Positions 12,143 through 19,930 of a stretch of DNA of 64,000 nt are shown piece after piece (within the stretch, counting starts at the first letter, position 1; every line of letters starts with the position of its first letter). Source of the stretch: Halorhabdus tiamatea SARL4B (GTDB lineage Archaea; Halobacteriota; Halobacteria; Halobacteriales; Haloarculaceae). The notes beneath the pieces are model-generated. The model was not told where the DNA came from, ran no database searches, and worked only from the letters and a program-made list of their open reading frames with translations. The stretch covers positions 1,178,001 through 1,242,000 of the forward strand of contig NC_021921.1 of NCBI RefSeq assembly GCF_000470655.1. The letters are read 5' to 3'. The position numbers and the translations under genes are program-made.

Positions 12143-13741
12143 GTGAACGACCGCTCTCCCGACGACGAGTCGGACCCGTCTGCGGACGACCGACTCGAGT
12201 CCCCACCCACGACGTCTCCCCCTCCAGACCCCGACGGAGACCAGACGGAGGACGACCCAGCCGGCGACGACGGGTCGGCGAACTCCATCACCGAAGGGAG
12301 TCTCATCCGGCCGCTGATCGGACTCGCGTGGCCGATCGTCGTCATCCAGCTGTTGCAGGTCACCTACAACATCGCCGACACGCTGTGGCTCGGCCGGCTG
12401 TCGGCCGACGCCGTCGGCGCGATCAGCCTCGCCTTCCCGCTGATCTTCCTGTTGATCGCCGTCGCCGGCGGCTTTACGACCGCTGGAGCTATTCTCGTTG
12501 CCCAGTACACCGGCGCGAAAGGCGACCGGTCGGCTGGCCTCGTGACCGGCCAGACGGTCAGCTTTGTCGGACTGCTGTCGGTCGTGATCGGGGTCGTCGG
12601 GTACTTCTACACCCGTCCTGCGCTCGAACTCCTGCCGAGCGACCCGGAGACGTCGGCGTCGGTCATCCCGCTTGCGGCCGACTACATGGAAGTCATCTTC
12701 ATGGGGATCCCGCTGATGTTCGGCTTTTTCATCTTCTCGGCGCTCATGCGGGGCTACGGCGACACGCGGACCCCGATGTTCGTGATGGTCGTATCCGTGG
12801 CGTTGAACGTCTTCGCCGACCCCTTCTTCATCTTCGGGTTCGCCGACAATCCGCTGTTTTCGTGGCTCGGCCTCGGTGGGCTGGAAGCCACCCTGCACGC
12901 GGCGACCGGCTTCACTGGGCTCGGTATCGAAGGTGCGGCGCTGGCGACGATCCTCTCGCGTGGGGTCGGGACCGCGATCGGCCTCTGGCTGTTGTTCGGG
13001 ACGGGAATCGGCCCCGCCGTCACGTTCGAGCACCTGCGGCCCGACTTCGAGGTCATCGAGGATATCGTTCGACTGGGGACCCCGAGCATGGTCGAGCAAT
13101 CGACCAGCGCGCTGGCGATGATCACACTGACGGCCATGATCGTCACGTTCACGCCGCCGGTCGTGGCGGCCTACGGCCTGGGCAATCGCCTCATCTCGCT
13201 GGTCTTTCTGCCGGCGATGGGGTTGGGCCGGGCGATCGACACGATGGTCGGCCAGAATCTGGGGGCCGATCGGGCCGATCGGGCCTCGCGGGCGACCTGG
13301 CTGGCCGCCGGGACCGGCGCGGGCGTGATGGCGGTCGTGGCTGTCATCGCGGTGGTGTTCACCGAACCCATCGTCGCCGTGTTCATGGGCGACGTGCCCG
13401 ATGCCGCCGCGACCATCGCTAACGGGGTCGAATACGTCCGGATCCGGTCGGTCGAGTTCGCCTTCATCGGCGTGACGCAGGTTATCCTCGGAGCTTTCCG
13501 GGGGGCCGGAAACACCCGCACGGCGATGGTCATCTCGATTCTGACGCTGTGGATCGGCCGGGTCGGGAGCGTCTACGTCCTCGTGTTCGCTCTCGGGTGG
13601 GGCGCGACCGGCGTCTGGGTCGGGATGGCGCTCGGCAACATCGTCGGTGCAGTCATCGGCGTCGCGTGGTTCCTCCGGGGCACCTGGACGGAGCGATACA
13701 TCGACGAACCCGCCGTCGACGCCGAGGAGACAATCTCGTGA
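12143..13741 (+). CDS. MATE-family efflux transporter
   Basis: The 532-residue protein starts with a long acidic, proline-rich cytoplasmic tail of about 50 residues. It then has twelve predicted helices in two MatE halves; recognisable segments are LIGLAWPIVVIQLLQVTYNIADTLWLG at the first helix and VGQNLGADRADRA after the first domain. MATE transporters export drugs or metabolites using Na+ or H+ gradients. The start is a GTG at 12143. The long acidic N-tail could contain later starts, but no other good start codon precedes the first helix. Confidence 0.88.
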   Translation: MNDRSPDDESDPSADDRLESPPTTSPPPDPDGDQTEDDPAGDDGSANSITEGSLIRPLIGLAWPIVVIQLLQVTYNIADTLWLGRLSADAVGAISLAFPLIFLLIAVAGGFTTAGAILVAQYTGAKGDRSAGLVTGQTVSFVGLLSVVIGVVGYFYTRPALELLPSDPETSASVIPLAADYMEVIFMGIPLMFGFFIFSALMRGYGDTRTPMFVMVVSVALNVFADPFFIFGFADNPLFSWLGLGGLEATLHAATGFTGLGIEGAALATILSRGVGTAIGLWLLFGTGIGPAVTFEHLRPDFEVIEDIVRLGTPSMVEQSTSALAMITLTAMIVTFTPPVVAAYGLGNRLISLVFLPAMGLGRAIDTMVGQNLGADRADRASRATWLAAGTGAGVMAVVAVIAVVFTEPIVAVFMGDVPDAAATIANGVEYVRIRSVEFAFIGVTQVILGAFRGAGNTRTAMVISILTLWIGRVGSVYVLVFALGWGATGVWVGMALGNIVGAVIGVAWFLRGTWTERYIDEPAVDAEETIS

Positions 13742-13766
13742 GTCACGAACGTCGATCCGTTTACGT

Positions 13767-14132
13767 TCAGGAAAACAGCAGTCCGAGATTGATCCCGGTG
13801 ATGACGGTGCCGACGATCGCCAGGAGAATCGGCGGGCCGTAAAACAGCAAGTAATCGTCTTCGAGGCGACCGGCCCAGATGCTGATCCCGAGACAGGCAT
13901 ACAGCACGAGCAACTTCATCGCCAGGAAGCCGCCGCCACCGAAGAGATCGATCGCGAGGTTGACGATCGGGTTCGCCTCGACGTGGACCCGGCTGAAATA
14001 GGCGATCGTAATCGTCGTGACGATGTCGCCGACGCCGTAGGTCGCCAGCGCGAGCAACCACACGTTCCGGAAGGAGTCCTCTTCGAAGGGCGAGCCTTCG
14101 AGGTGGAGCCAGTCAGGGCGGGCCGTTGCCAT
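13767..14132 (-). CDS. DUF5658-like small membrane protein
   Basis: The 121-residue protein has about four membrane helices (for example FRNVWLLALATYGVGDIVTT and LAIDLFGGGGFLAMKLLVLY) and an NPIVN motif between the first two. This matches the DUF5658 family of short haloarchaeal membrane proteins of unknown role. An A/T-rich GATATTTG near 14160 lies about 27 bp before the ATG. It is convergent with the MATE gene. Confidence 0.78.
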   Translation of the reverse strand: MATARPDWLHLEGSPFEEDSFRNVWLLALATYGVGDIVTTITIAYFSRVHVEANPIVNLAIDLFGGGGFLAMKLLVLYACLGISIWAGRLEDDYLLFYGPPILLAIVGTVITGINLGLLFS

Positions 14133-14365
14133 CGATCAACATAAGCACCCCAACCGACAAATATCACATCCCCCGGTTATCAAATCCGATGTTGGAGGGT
14201 GAGGCGAACAGGGCAATTGTCATCACTCGTAGAGTAGCTACGAACTGGCAATGTTCGTCATGAGCGCTCAATATCGGTGAGAAGAGCAAAGATGTCCTGC
14301 GGGGACTTGGATACTGGTTTTCGAACAGAGATGGGGAGAATAGACGCTACATCTGCTGATGGTAT

Positions 14366-15235
14366 TTAGCCACATCGGACGGTGTTTCCGTCGGAGTGTT
14401 CAACACATCCCTTCGTTGGAGTCCCGGACAATGTTATGTCTGGTTCGTAGATCAGTCTATCATCAGAATCTCGAATGTCAGTGTTATCGACGAACAATGT
14501 CCCAGTTTTCGTCGTAAGATTGGCCGTGATCATGCCACCTTGTTTGGTTTTGAGTGTGGCAGAAGCAAGGCTCATGTCGCCATTTGATTCGAATTCAATA
14601 TTGCCTGTTGGGCCTTCGACAGTGGCCGAGTCGAGCAAAAGATCCCCATCAGTGGCTGACAGAATCACATTGCCGTTCTTGGATTTGATGTCCGATCGTT
14701 GAGCGGAGATCTGATCGGCCGATAAGTCGATCGCGTCATTTGCATCGATCGTTGTATCGGCGATGTTGAGCGTTTCGTTGGCGATAACGGTGACAGCACT
14801 GTTCTTCGATTTGACCTTCGAACCCGTGACTGTGACGTCACCCTGTGTGGCGGTAAGACTGACAGGGCCAGTACCCGATTCTATCGTAACTTTCGAATTG
14901 ATATCCCCTGCAGTTATTGAAACGCCGTCATTCTTCGCTTTGACTTTACCCATACCATCAGGAATAACGAGGTTCGCAGATGGATCATTAAATTCGTAGA
15001 GTTGTTCTTCAGAGTATGTTGACTCATCCGAATCGTAGAATCCATCCCCATCTTTGTCGTCCCACGCGTCCCCTCCTGGAGGAGACCCGTCGAACGTGTC
15101 CGCTGCCTGGATCGACCCGCTGCCGGTCGCTGAATCGCTGAACATCCCGTAGGTCGTCGCGCCGGCACTGAATCCGACACCGGCGACGAACACGCCCGCG
15201 ATCACGGCAACGGCGAGAAGTCGGCGCGAACTCAC
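14366..15235 (-). CDS. Secreted beta-helical repeat protein with SipW-type signal peptide
   Basis: The 289-residue protein starts VSSRRLLAVAVIAGVFVAGVG and continues GMFSDSATGSGSIQA, which is the SipW-dependent signal layout (a hydrophobic helix then FSDxxT). An EF-hand-like calcium loop follows (DKDGDGFYDSDE, about residues 64-75). About 170 residues of short repeats come next, such as DVTVTGSKVKSKN, NLNIADTT-like rungs, SDIKSKNGNVILSATDG and ASATLKTKQGG, suggesting a beta-solenoid. The GTG start overlaps the SipW stop in a GTGA, so translation is coupled. Two cysteines near the C-terminus may pair. Function unknown; a surface or matrix role is inferred. Confidence 0.8.
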   Translation of the reverse strand: MSSRRLLAVAVIAGVFVAGVGFSAGATTYGMFSDSATGSGSIQAADTFDGSPPGGDAWDDKDGDGFYDSDESTYSEEQLYEFNDPSANLVIPDGMGKVKAKNDGVSITAGDINSKVTIESGTGPVSLTATQGDVTVTGSKVKSKNSAVTVIANETLNIADTTIDANDAIDLSADQISAQRSDIKSKNGNVILSATDGDLLLDSATVEGPTGNIEFESNGDMSLASATLKTKQGGMITANLTTKTGTLFVDNTDIRDSDDRLIYEPDITLSGTPTKGCVEHSDGNTVRCG

Positions 15236-15777
15236 GACGTCTCCCCCTCCTCCGACTCCGTTACGTCCGTGTACAGCGACCACATTTCCGAGACGACCAA
15301 CAGAGTCGCTGGCACGACGACGAGGGTGACGAGTCCCGTCGTCGATCCCGCAAAGGCGATCAGATAGCCGATCAACGGGACGTGAAACTGCACGACGCCG
15401 ACGACGTTCGAAGCTGCGACGAGTTGCTCGTCGGGGTTGTCGTTCGCATCGCCCTTGGTACGGAACTGCAGTTGGTCATCAGCCGTTTCGATATCGACGA
15501 CGCGGTGTGTGACCCGGGTTGTACTCCCAGCATTCTCAGATTCTACGTAGGTGATCACGTCCTCTCGTTCGATGCGATCCGCGGGGACGTCACTGACGAG
15601 AACGACGGCTCCGGCGTCGATACTAGGCGACATACTGTCAGAACGGACGACGAAACTGTGGTCAGCACCCGCGAGTTGTGGGACTGTCGTGACGAGTACC
15701 GCGCCCAAAACGAACAGGAAAACGAGGACTACTGCGATGGTTCCGAGTCGTCTCCAGTCGAAGTCTGTCGGATTCAT
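15232..15777 (-). CDS. sipW: Signal peptidase I, ER/SipW type
   Basis: The 181-residue enzyme has an N-terminal membrane helix (IAVVLVFLFVLGAVLVT). The catalytic serine lies in VRSDSMSPS (Ser48). A histidine replaces the bacterial lysine in TTRVTHRVV (His91), and a conserved GDAN motif (Asp110) follows, so it belongs to the Ser-His archaeal/ER class. A second helix pair lies at the C-terminus. It stands between two proteins with SipW-type signals, one ending 59 bp upstream and one overlapping by 4 bp downstream, and is probably their dedicated processing enzyme. Confidence 0.9.
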   Translation of the reverse strand: MNPTDFDWRRLGTIAVVLVFLFVLGAVLVTTVPQLAGADHSFVVRSDSMSPSIDAGAVVLVSDVPADRIEREDVITYVESENAGSTTRVTHRVVDIETADDQLQFRTKGDANDNPDEQLVAASNVVGVVQFHVPLIGYLIAFAGSTTGLVTLVVVPATLLVVSEMWSLYTDVTESEEGETS

Positions 15778-15836
15778 TACGTCGGGAGATTACCGAGCTG
15801 TCGAACGATCACGCGGATTCCAAGAGACGGTCCGCG

Positions 15837-16370
15837 TTACGTCTGTTGGGTGGCGTTGAACGTCACCGTGATACCGACACTATCGCCCTGGTAGTCGTTG
15901 CCAGTATCTTCCCCGAGAGTAAAGTTAGCATTTACCGTGATCGTGTCGCCCCCGCCGAGCGTTGCAACGTTTTCGTAGGTGCCAGTAAGGTCGGCAAGGG
16001 TTCCACCCGAGAAGGAGCCAATGTCTGTTCCACCTGCGTTGAGTTCAGCGGTGTTGACGTCTAACTGCTGGGAGAAATTAGAATTGTCGTCGACCGATAC
16101 GTCAACAGTCAGGTTAGCGGCGACGCCCGCCTCGTACGTCGTGCTGATCGACTGCATGCCTGTACTTTCCGTGGGATAGAGGCCAGTAACGGAGAAATTG
16201 CTACTAACGGGATCCAGAGTCAAATCGCCTGCCTGGATACTGTTATCGGATGTCGTCTCGTCGCTGAACAGTGCGAACGTCCCCACACCGGCCGCTGCCG
16301 CCGCGAGTCCGATGACTAGTATGCTTGCCAGTACGCGCCGTCTCGTGAGCTTGATATCGAAGTCAATCAT
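15837..16370 (-). CDS. TasA/camelysin-like secreted protein with SipW-type signal
   Basis: The 177-residue protein starts KLTRRRVLASILVIGLAAAA, then GTFALFSDETTSDNSIQAGDL, the classic SipW-dependent signal and cleavage context seen in TasA and CalY. The mature region of about 140 residues is beta-rich, Asn/Thr/Gly-rich and cysteine-free, with the GTYENVATLGGGDT and TVTFNATQ segments of the TasA/CalY fold. Related archaeal proteins form bundling pili and bacterial TasA forms biofilm fibres. It is the first gene of a three-gene operon with sipW. A TATA-like TTTAAGTGG at 16432-16440 (minus strand) suggests a leader of about 40 nt. Confidence 0.85.
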   Translation of the reverse strand: MIDFDIKLTRRRVLASILVIGLAAAAAGVGTFALFSDETTSDNSIQAGDLTLDPVSSNFSVTGLYPTESTGMQSISTTYEAGVAANLTVDVSVDDNSNFSQQLDVNTAELNAGGTDIGSFSGGTLADLTGTYENVATLGGGDTITVNANFTLGEDTGNDYQGDSVGITVTFNATQQT

Positions 16371-16968
16371 GGGTGAAACCCTGGTTCTCGCCTTCGAAGA
16401 GGCGTTTCTATGTAAGTGAACACACTACACCCACTTAAATCACCGTACGTCTATTCTTCGTGTGAAAAACCAAACGAACATTTGATAACTGGAGCGATAG
16501 TATTGAATATGCCAGTAATTGCATAAAAAACAGATCGTATCGATATCAATCCGGCTGAAATCGTGAAAGACCCATATGCACAGTCGTGATAATCGAGCGT
16601 TAGAAGCCGTCTATATCCACATTTCGGCCGTTTAAGCCATCCTTTCGAATAGACGAACAGTATCACCTGTGATATCAGAGGTTTCAGCCCCGAAAGCGGT
16701 GGTTTTCATCGATGTGGCTGTCAGCCATCACGAAGACTCCACCGATATATTCGCCACAAAGACAATACAGGCCGACAGAGCGGTCGTTGAGGACTTGACG
16801 CCCAGGTATCGAGATTGAAACAGTCACTATCGACGGCAGGAAGATCGTAACTGAACGCAGCCGACAGGTATTCACTCCACACGTTCCGTCGGCGAGACGT
16901 CGTCCCGCTTGGGAGAACTGCTGGATCGATTCATGGGAATGGAAGAACGAAGCCGAACGTCTCGCCGA
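16371..16968. other. 598-bp low-GC intergenic region without a convincing gene
   Basis: The part nearest 16370 holds the promoter of the SipW operon. From 16450 to 16880 the sequence is much more A/T-rich than its surroundings. Short open frames of 60-70 codons exist on the minus strand (16451-16666 and 16684-16875), but their composition and lack of haloarchaeal acidity argue against coding. Fragments such as NVWSEYLSAAFSYDL in the minus-strand frame near 16860 look protein-like but have no start and soon stop, so a decayed mobile-element remnant is possible. Confidence 0.6.
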
Positions 16969-18003
16969 TCACGCGTTGGGCAGCAGATCAACGAGTACCC
17001 CGAGCGTCTCGAGGATCACCCAGCCCACGAAAGCCCCGTAGATCACGAGCAGTCCGAACGCTTCCCGATCCGAGAGTCGGAGGTCCGTCCGGAGGACTGT
17101 AAAGAGCGCGATTGTCGCCGCCGTCAGCACGCCGAACATCGGGACGGCCATCGCAAAGTCGACCGTCTCGGCACCCACGATGAGGACGCCGACGGGGATT
17201 GCTACCAGCAAGTCGAACGTGTTCGAGCCGAGGACGTTCGCCAACGACGTGACGCCGCGCTGTTCGCGGGCTGCCCGGACGCTAACGAGTGCGTCCGGCG
17301 CACTGGTCGCTGCCGCGATGATCGTCACGCCGAGAAGGAACGCGGGGACACCGAAGGCTTCGCCAAGGGCGGACACCGACTCGACGAGGAAGTGGACCGC
17401 GACGACGATCACGAGCAGCCCAGCTGCGAGCAAGCCCCACTGTCGACCCGGCTCGATGTCGTTTTCCGCCGCCGGAGGGACGGTGCTCGCCCGGTGGTCG
17501 GCGGTATCCTGGTACTGGATGAAGACGTAGAGCCCGTAGAGGCCAAAGGGGAGGAGTGCGAGCGGGCGGGTGATCGTCCCCTCCAGACTGACGCCTCCGA
17601 CGGGATAGTAGATGACACCCAGTGCGAAGGTGATCAACAGGACCGAGACCGCGAGCATGTAGAACTGGGCTTCCTTGTAGACGAGGGTGCGGTTGGACTC
17701 GAGTGGCTCGTCGGTCAGGAGGCTGGCGAGAGCGGGGATGACGAGGACGTTGAAGATCGCCGAGCCGACGATCCCGCCGACGCCGAGCGCGAGCGAGCCG
17801 GCCAATCCCGCGATCACGACGGTCGCGAGTTCGGGCATGCTCGAGCCGACGGCCGCGATCACGGCCCCCTGAACGACCTGCGGAAGGCCGTAGTGGGTTG
17901 CCAGTCGGTCGCTGGCCCCTTCGAGCCAGCCACTACCGAGCCAGATTGCGCCTGACGCGAGGGCGATAATCGCGACGTCGAACACGTGGGCAGTCGTGGT
18001 CAT
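16969..18003 (-). CDS. Sodium/calcium exchanger family protein (YrbG-like CaCA)
   Basis: The 344-residue membrane protein has about ten helices in two inverted halves. Each half holds an ion-binding alpha repeat: GSSMPELATVVIAGLAGS with GSAIFNVL in the first, and ATSAPDALVSVRAA with LGSNTFDLL in the second. The acidic residue needed for ion binding is present in the first repeat (E) and is D in the second. A hydrophilic cytoplasmic loop of about 30 residues separates the halves. It lies 43 bp downstream of the antiporter gene on the same strand, so both are probably one ion-homeostasis operon. Na+/Ca2+ exchange is inferred. Confidence 0.9.
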   Translation of the reverse strand: MTTTAHVFDVAIIALASGAIWLGSGWLEGASDRLATHYGLPQVVQGAVIAAVGSSMPELATVVIAGLAGSLALGVGGIVGSAIFNVLVIPALASLLTDEPLESNRTLVYKEAQFYMLAVSVLLITFALGVIYYPVGGVSLEGTITRPLALLPFGLYGLYVFIQYQDTADHRASTVPPAAENDIEPGRQWGLLAAGLLVIVVAVHFLVESVSALGEAFGVPAFLLGVTIIAAATSAPDALVSVRAAREQRGVTSLANVLGSNTFDLLVAIPVGVLIVGAETVDFAMAVPMFGVLTAATIALFTVLRTDLRLSDREAFGLLVIYGAFVGWVILETLGVLVDLLPNA

Positions 18004-18046
18004 ATGGGGGAGTGGCAGTCAGAAACTCCACAGGTTGCAGGGAGGA

Positions 18047-19930
18047 TCACTCCTGGCAGAAGGCCATACCCTTCCGGACGGCGTCGCTCTCGCCCAGGAG
18101 CGTCACCTTGTCGCCGGCCTCGATCGTGTAGTCGGCGCTCGGAACGATGGTTTCGCCGTCACGGTTGACCAGGGCGATCAGACACGAATCGGGCAGATCC
18201 GGCCCGATATCCTTGATCTGTCGCCCGATCAGGTTCTCGCTGGTGACTTCGACCTCCTGGACGTCGCCGACGCGGTCGATGTCCGTCATCCAGCCCGCGA
18301 GTGCGGGGCGCTCGATCTGGTTGTCCATAGCCCACGCGACCGCCATCGAGGAGGAGATCGTCCGCACACCCAGATCCTCGAAGGCCTCGACGTTGTCGGG
18401 GTTGTTCGCCCGAGCGATGACGTCCTCGATTTCGAAGTTCGTGCTCGCGAGTTGGGCGACCAGCAGGTTGGTGTCGTCGTCGCCAGTCGCGGCGACGACC
18501 GTCTTGGCGTTGTTCGCGCCGGCCTCCCGCAAGACATCGGTATCCGTGCCGTCCCCGATGATAGCGGTGAAGCCGTCGTTGCGGATGGCTTCGACCTGTG
18601 TTTCGTCGTCTTCGACGATGACGACGTTCTCTCCACGCGCTTCGAGACGGTCGGCGAGCGCGCGGCCGACGCGGCCGCCGCCCACGATGATGACTCGCAT
18701 TGGTATCACGTCAAAGTATTGTGCGACGTAGCGTGCCAGACCGCCCTCGACGACGGCCGTGGCGAGGATGACGAGGAAGACCGTACCGATGAGGATGTTG
18801 GCCTCCGCCGCCATCCCCTGTGACTGCAGTTCGATGGCGAACAGCGTCGCGACGGACGCGGGGATGATCCCACGCGGGCCGACGAAGCTCATGAACGCCC
18901 GTTCGCCGAACGTAAACCGACCGCCAACCGTCGAGACGTACATCAACAGCGGCCGGATGAAGACCGCGACCGCCACGGCCACGAGCAGTCCGGGGACCAG
19001 AACGTCAAAGAGGACGCCCAGTTCGAGGATCGCCGCCAGCGTAATGAAGACGAACGAGAGCACCAGCAGCGTCACGTCGCCTTTGAAGGCCGTGATCTCC
19101 TCCTCGTAGGGGATGTCCAGATTGCCCAGGACGATCCCCGCCGTCGCGGCGGCGGCGACCCCGGCTTCGCCCGAGAGGTAGTTCGCGCCGGCGTACGCGA
19201 CGATCGCGCCCGCCAGGACCAACAGCCGGGCGTTCCGGGGAGCGTCCCCCGGTGAGAGATCGACGTACCGCAACAGGTAGTAGATCGTGCCGGCGACGAT
19301 CCCGCCGACGAGGACGCCCTGGCCGAGACGCTCGGCGAACGCGCTGAGTAACTCGACAGGCGGCGCACCGCTGAGGACAATCACCTCGAAGACCACGACC
19401 GCCGTGATCGCCGCGGTCACGTCGTTGACGATCCCCTCCGTTTCGAGTGCGGCGGCGACGCGGTCCCGGACTGGAACGACCTGCAGGATCGGGGCGATGA
19501 CGGTCGGCCCCGTCGCGACGAGCAACGCACCGATCAGAAAGGACAGTCCCCAGGTGGTCTCGGCGAAAGCGAGCTTGACGGCGACGGCCGTCCCGACAAG
19601 CGCGATGCCAGCACCGAGGGTGACCAGCCGGAACGTCGCCGCCGGGGCCTCGCGTAACCGATCGAGGTGGAGGTGAAAGGCCCCCTCGAAGACGATGATC
19701 GCCACCGAGAGCCCGACGATCGCCGAGAGGGGTGCCGCACCGAACGTCGAAAGCGAGAACAGCCGCTCCGGTAGTACGAGCCCGGACAGCGGGCCGATCG
19801 CCAGCCCGGCCGCGATGTAGAAGATGATACTCGGGAGTCGCCAGCGCGCGGCCAGCAACTGTGCGCCGACACCCAGCGCGAAGATCATCGCCACGAGCAG
19901 GACGATTACGTCCGCGCCACCGGCGCTCAC
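18047..19930 (-). CDS. NhaP-type cation/proton antiporter with RCK (TrkA-N and TrkA-C) domains
   Basis: The 627-residue protein has about 12-13 membrane helices (residues 1-400). Antiporter motifs are visible: GPTVIAPILQ, EGIVNDVTAA (with the NhaP-type Asn-Asp pair) and FVGPRGIIPASVA. A TrkA-N Rossmann domain (about 402-520) has GGGRVGRALADRL and the acidic VIVEDDE strand end, followed by a TrkA-C domain ending at the C-terminus. It probably exchanges Na+ or K+ for H+ under nucleotide control. A clear Shine-Dalgarno GGAGGT precedes the GTG start by six bases, unusual in this window. Confidence 0.9.
   Translation of the reverse strand: MSAGGADVIVLLVAMIFALGVGAQLLAARWRLPSIIFYIAAGLAIGPLSGLVLPERLFSLSTFGAAPLSAIVGLSVAIIVFEGAFHLHLDRLREAPAATFRLVTLGAGIALVGTAVAVKLAFAETTWGLSFLIGALLVATGPTVIAPILQVVPVRDRVAAALETEGIVNDVTAAITAVVVFEVIVLSGAPPVELLSAFAERLGQGVLVGGIVAGTIYYLLRYVDLSPGDAPRNARLLVLAGAIVAYAGANYLSGEAGVAAAATAGIVLGNLDIPYEEEITAFKGDVTLLVLSFVFITLAAILELGVLFDVLVPGLLVAVAVAVFIRPLLMYVSTVGGRFTFGERAFMSFVGPRGIIPASVATLFAIELQSQGMAAEANILIGTVFLVILATAVVEGGLARYVAQYFDVIPMRVIIVGGGRVGRALADRLEARGENVVIVEDDETQVEAIRNDGFTAIIGDGTDTDVLREAGANNAKTVVAATGDDDTNLLVAQLASTNFEIEDVIARANNPDNVEAFEDLGVRTISSSMAVAWAMDNQIERPALAGWMTDIDRVGDVQEVEVTSENLIGRQIKDIGPDLPDSCLIALVNRDGETIVPSADYTIEAGDKVTLLGESDAVRKGMAFCQE

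Follow-up and report, generated by a model that had tools for sequence, protein, structure and literature searches.

The window analysed here is a 64,000-nucleotide stretch of the Halorhabdus tiamatea SARL4B genome (contig NC_021921.1), and it carries three genes on its minus strand in the order tasA-like, sipW and beta-helix partner (Table 1). The original prediction had placed a TasA-like gene, sipW and a third gene in one operon with the last two coupled by a GTGA sequence. All three genes are present as placed, with the TGA stop of sipW and the GTG start of the third gene overlapping at 15235-15232. G+C content is 55-59% across the operon (window positions 14001-18000) and 60-69% elsewhere in the window. 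A TTTAAGT stretch lies upstream of the tasA-like gene in the presumed leader (16380-16440), as does the short inverted repeat CGCCTCTTCGAAGGCG. The operon is flanked (12143-19930) by genes that were named by eye as MATE transporter, DUF5658-like, Na/Ca exchanger and KefB-like.

Table 1. Features of the tasA-sipW-partner operon in window coordinates (L numbers denote comparison loci).
Feature	Position	Strand	Remarks
tasA-like fibre subunit P0001, 177 aa	15837..16370	-	TRRRVL twin-arginine N-region, SipW-type signal, predicted beta-rich core residues 46-177
Predicted mature N-terminus/donor strand of TasA-like protein, LFSDETTSDNS then I45	16239..16271	-	Aligned with TasA residues 28-38; cleavage site predicted
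sipW, P0002, 181 aa, ER/archaeal-type signal peptidase	15232..15777	-	S48 H91 D110; C-terminal hydrophobic segment
GTGA overlap, sipW stop TGA/third-gene GTG start	15232..15235	-	Same 4 nt in L032, L033, L037, L038, L039
Beta-helix partner gene P0003, 289 aa, GTG start	14366..15235	-	Fil_haemagg_2 29 bits, cut-off 22
SipW-type signal peptide of partner, residues 1-30	15146..15235	-	Boundary predicted
Putative donor strand of partner, MFSDSATGSGSI, residues 31-42	15110..15145	-	F32, I42 spaced like TasA F29, F39
Putative calcium-binding loop DKDGDGFYDSDE, residues 60-71	15023..15058	-	Conserved as DxNGNGxxDxGE in alignment
Beta-helix domain, residues 83-289	14369..14989	-	AlphaFold pLDDT mostly above 90

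The first protein, P0001, passed the cut-offs of the Pfam family Peptidase_M73 (PF12389, TasA/camelysin; 38.9 bits, cut-off 22.5) and of the NCBIfam model for SipW-type signals, TIGR04088 (35.5 bits, cut-off 19). Profile searching against PDB structures returned the TasA fibre subunit as its closest solved relative. The family profile A5, made from 30 haloarchaeal relatives, matched the TasA fibre structure 8aur with an E-value of 1.6e-12, and the alignment ran from the donor strand through the last strand, starting at TasA F29. In the TasA fibre the donor strand comprises residues 28-38, and F29, I32 and F39 are contact residues (PMC9674648). AlphaFold modelled a confident beta-rich core at residues 46-177 behind an unstructured N-terminus. 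These profile matches bear out the suggestion of a TasA/CalY-like protein and identify P0001 as a true TasA relative, a relation that at the level of fold rests on sequence because TasA was not among the top 50 matches listed when the model was searched with Foldseek. A search of the whole genome yielded no TasA-like gene besides that of the operon, and the single TIGR04088 match is likewise the operon's own.

The second protein, P0002, scored 106 bits against TIGR02228 (cut-off 51.9). Its residues S48, H91 and D110 are taken to be catalytic, as established for the Ser, His and Asp in enzymes of the SipW type, and were invariant in an alignment of 11 P0002 homologues. A Ser-His pair instead of Ser-Lys, together with the Asp, places the protein with the ER/archaeal-type signal peptidases, in agreement with the expected Ser-His peptidase of SipW type. 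Against NF046067, the Bacillus SipW equivalog model, P0002 scored 111 bits, and because this falls under the cut-off of 190 the profile scores mark it as a relative and not as the Bacillus equivalog. One further, weaker signal-peptidase match was detected elsewhere in the genome.

In the partner, P0003, a TasA-like signal leads into the motif FSDSATGSGSIQAAD, after which come a short linker of Pro and Gly, a DxDGDG loop and the beta-helix. Scored with a profile trained solely on TasA-like signals, the N-terminus of P0003 exceeded 99% of shuffles. With the same profile every SipW-type helix homologue lay above the 99th percentile of composition-matched shuffles, and all of them outscored every distant helix relative with another kind of N-terminus. 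TIGR04088 did not report P0003 itself, and its homologues in L031 (19.7 bits) and L038 (24.5 bits) passed the cut-off of 19; the shuffles and these two matches are in line with the claim of a second protein with a SipW-type signal. The TapA model TIGR04087 gave weak N-terminal matches in L103, L031 and L038, and neither model matched P0003 at E below 1. In 10 of 10 aligned helix proteins an F or L is followed exactly ten residues on by I or V, which is the spacing of TasA F29 and F39. Speaking against a donor strand in this segment, the TasA I32 position is a serine (S35) in the window's partner, and P0003 is unmatched by both TIGR04088 and TIGR04087. AlphaFold left residues 1-47 of P0003 mostly below pLDDT 50, giving an unstructured N-terminus with the beta-helix after it. 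The likeness of this N-terminus to the TasA donor strand had been missed in the original prediction.

A twin-arginine motif (window 16346-16329) sits in the SipW-type signal of nearly all haloarchaeal TasA-like proteins (window and L031-L134). It was counted in 75 of the 79 TasA-like N-termini found, a figure that is biased upward because the search query itself carried the motif, and two of the four exceptions read GRRR. Inspection of the helix proteins by eye found the motif in 1 of 11. As the motif is common in the TasA-like proteins and rare in the helix proteins, it suggests that the TasA-like subunit may be exported by Tat and the partner by Sec.

No beta-sandwich was found in the partner, and the loop and helix come directly after the N-terminal motif. 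A donor-strand beta-sandwich in the predicted structures of both secreted proteins had been put forward as support for the TasA relation. The prediction gave a beta-rich core for the first protein, whereas the partner is a beta-helix with no second TasA-like sandwich. Unrelated folds, named at the outset as what would refute the idea, were not the outcome of structure prediction, with the qualification already given for the Foldseek top 50. The loop may bind calcium. Searching the PDB with the partner helix in Foldseek gave mainly beta-helical proteins; they superposed poorly, and no match had an E-value below 0.001. Pfam matched P0003 over a haemagglutinin-repeat stretch only, best at residues 121-159. 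Two family assignments were rejected on the Pfam results: a two-partner secretion haemagglutinin, as the N-terminal TPS secretion domain is absent from P0003, and an archaeal type IV pilin (PF07790), as its Pilin_N domain is likewise absent.

Pilin_N was found in distant relatives of the partner helix, for example in L040, L049 and L140. The loop-plus-beta-helix module also occurs on type IV pilin or DUF7289-like N-termini (L040, L046, L049, L140, L041, L042, L045, L050 and L058-L062), and one carrier, L140, is the methanogen Methanohalophilus. Since the module sits on varied N-termini, including that of a methanogen, it looks like a mobile display module. In another group of helix proteins (L043, L044, L047, L048, L051-L053 and L055-L057) the signal ends in FST or FSS and an Ig-like domain follows it at the N-terminus; these proteins may have a fibre-type domain fused to the beta-helix. 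Pfam gave no informative match to this Ig-like domain in the L043 group, and searching by motif for similar proteins next to the helix genes with an Ig domain returned nothing but those helix genes.

Genome contigs were scanned for the helix using a five-sequence alignment as query. The tasA-sipW-helix order was present in eight loci (the window, L031, L032, L033, L037, L038, L039 and L138) that span four genera of one family, including Halorhabdus and Haloarcula. The junction of sipW with the helix gene is a four-base overlap in six of the eight, a 17-base overlap in L031 and a two-base gap in L138. Order and overlap are kept in most loci at protein identities of 34-42%. The three-gene order, found alike in eight loci of four genera, is not chance. 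A lack of conserved neighbours beside sipW in every relative had been named as a second way for the idea to fail; several genera share the order. SipW-type helix proteins were detected in 10 of 392 sampled genomes of the order, all from one family, and sipW was present in 10 of these 10 compared to 156 of 392 (about 40%) overall, counts that are not independent events because the sampled genomes are related. In three of the ten, all Haloarcula, the SipW-type helix gene lies away from sipW and the mature motif scores weakly.

A coupled gene behind sipW was not restricted to loci with the helix. Within a few bases of 40 of 50 haloarchaeal sipW genes there followed an ORF with a hydrophobic N-terminus, overlapping sipW by four bases in 26 of the 40, compared to 39 coupled hydrophobic ORFs and 10 four-base overlaps at the stops of 311 other long ORFs; these proportions are estimates because the controls were long ORFs and not curated genes and because the sipW sample was preselected, either by similarity to the window's sipW or from loci found via the helix. 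Scored with the TasA signal profile, the N-termini of 28 of the 40 coupled ORFs ranked above 95% of shuffles. The C-termini in this third slot vary and include the beta-helix, PKD domains (L100, L114 and L132), Thr/Pro-rich or acidic tails and others, and the coupled proteins of L095-L134 and of the earlier loci are mostly without a Pfam match. In L095, L096, L101 and L105 the third-slot protein has a putative signal anchor, a Thr/Pro-rich linker and a TasA-like domain. Coordinates were recorded for three of these genes (L095 4168-5019, L101 4066-5010 and L105 4093-5043), which encode a hydrophobic N-terminus, a Thr/Pro/Ser-rich linker and a C-terminal TasA-like domain and whose products could be membrane-anchored acceptor subunits. 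The coupled genes behind sipW are candidates for a general class of fibre end pieces. The generality of the coupled partner in haloarchaea was absent from the original prediction.

Comparison of the window with L038, a locus of the same genus, found the flanking genes to be 89-94% identical, with identities of 34% for tasA, 46% for sipW and 33% for the helix protein. For L039 the flanks were 90-93% identical and the cassette proteins 67% (tasA), 73% (sipW) and 35% (helix). In the sipW tree two loci of the window's genus, L038 and L098, branched with other genera (SH-aLRT 96), outside the window's group (99). In L098 sipW adjoins the same DUF5658-like gene and the helix gene is absent. As the flanks are about 90% identical, the cassette proteins 33-73% identical and the sipW tree discordant, replacement of the whole cassette by recombination through the flanks is suggested as the simplest account of these sequences, with very fast divergence as a possible alternative. 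The variability of the cassette at a fixed site is a further feature that the first description of the locus had missed.

The gene content and conservation of the cassette are well supported; we infer protein processing and docking, comprising cleavage by this SipW, strand insertion, a position at the fibre end and an adhesive or display role. The reading that we favour, at a probability of roughly 60%, is that the partner acts like TapA, as a subunit that only donates a strand: it would start or cap the TasA fibre and present the beta-helix there. SipW would remove the signals from both exported proteins, and the TasA-like subunits would then polymerise by donor-strand exchange, each inserting its N-terminal strand into the next subunit. 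The partner would donate the same strand, with the beta-helix replacing the acceptor beta-sandwich so that there would be no groove to receive another. Because it would offer a strand but no groove, the partner would be limited to one fibre end (tip or base), the one with an open first groove, where it would start assembly and display the beta-helix. Placement at the end also follows the analogy with TapA (PMC10151520), which has been described as a donor-only partner of TasA (PMC9674648, PMC10151520); the sequence and single-chain model of P0003 are consistent with such a role.

The leading alternative, which we consider unlikely, is that the partner works as an adhesin of its own, secreted or on the surface, and shares only the signal peptidase with the TasA-like protein without docking onto a fibre. 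The mature residues common to both proteins might serve SipW recognition instead of forming a donor strand, and recognition by itself could account for the common N-terminus. An independent adhesin also fits the three Haloarcula genomes in which the SipW-type helix gene is far from both sipW and tasA, and the occurrence of the beta-helix module on type IV pilin and other N-terminal domains. However, order and four-base overlap have been held in most loci at the low identities given above, the common motif continues past whatever cleavage site is assumed, as far as the TasA F39 position, and differently built coupled partners across haloarchaea retain a similar N-terminus. We regard it as improbable that the hydrophobic segment of the partner stays uncleaved and holds the beta-helix at the membrane, which would make the partner a base or cell-surface protein. 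The length of this segment, the missing twin-arginine motif in most partners and the anchor-like third-slot proteins of L095, L096, L101 and L105 would fit such an anchor, but conservation of the SipW-type cleavage region and the passing TIGR04088 scores of two partner homologues speak against it. That the first gene encodes a camelysin-type metallopeptidase and the operon a secreted protease system, as the Pfam name (Peptidase_M73, camelysin metallo-endopeptidase) might imply, was rejected with next to no probability left to it, as P0001 has no histidine at all and therefore no zinc-protease motif and its nearest solved structure is the TasA fibre subunit.

Extending the donor-only reading to the other coupled genes, we tentatively propose, at somewhat under even odds, that the third slot is a general, exchangeable end-piece slot of haloarchaeal TasA fibres in which a donor-strand plug is joined to one of several unrelated display parts (beta-helix, PKD domains, Thr/Pro-rich or acidic tails) and cassettes are swapped whole from species to species at a fixed chromosomal site, so that the fibre end changes and the assembly mechanism stays. 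If the partner docks, archaeal donor-strand fibres would have dedicated end pieces, as in Bacillus, and would follow a simple modular rule that is testable in a genetically tractable haloarchaeon. The many coupled genes behind sipW that lack annotation would thereby gain a candidate function as well.

Archaeal TasA-related fibres and the pairing of SipW with TasA are already known. A search limited to the open literature turned up no publication that mentions SipW together with haloarchaea or Haloferax volcanii. To judge from the open literature that could be searched, the coupled donor-strand beta-helix protein, its generality in haloarchaea and the exchange of cassettes are undescribed, in keeping with the earlier remark that the pairing with a beta-helix was an unfamiliar layout. 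One of the closest known systems is the tapA-sipW-tasA operon of Bacillus subtilis, in which a TasA-family subunit and an ER-type peptidase are likewise accompanied by another SipW-type substrate whose N-terminus resembles a donor strand, and in which sipW also overlaps the accessory gene (PMC9674648, PMC10151520). The order here is tasA-sipW-partner instead of tapA-sipW-tasA, and the window's partner has a beta-helix where TapA has an Ig domain. The sipW, tasA, capP and calY locus of Bacillus cereus similarly holds TasA/CalY subunits, SipW and an accessory assembly protein, but CapP is chaperone-like with an N- and a C-domain, and the parts of that source consulted mention no beta-helix (PMC13082335). 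Filamentous haemagglutinin-type repeats (PF13332) resemble the partner in local repeat similarity above the cut-off and in their beta-helix fold, but only a short stretch matches, and the partner has a SipW-type signal and no two-partner secretion domain. Among archaea, the bundling pili (AbpA of Pyrobaculum calidifontis and AbpX) are fibres structurally related to TasA (PMC9674648, PMC10151520), but they are distant in sequence, and the AbpX entries 9rhp and 9sj2 match the TasA-like profile weakly.
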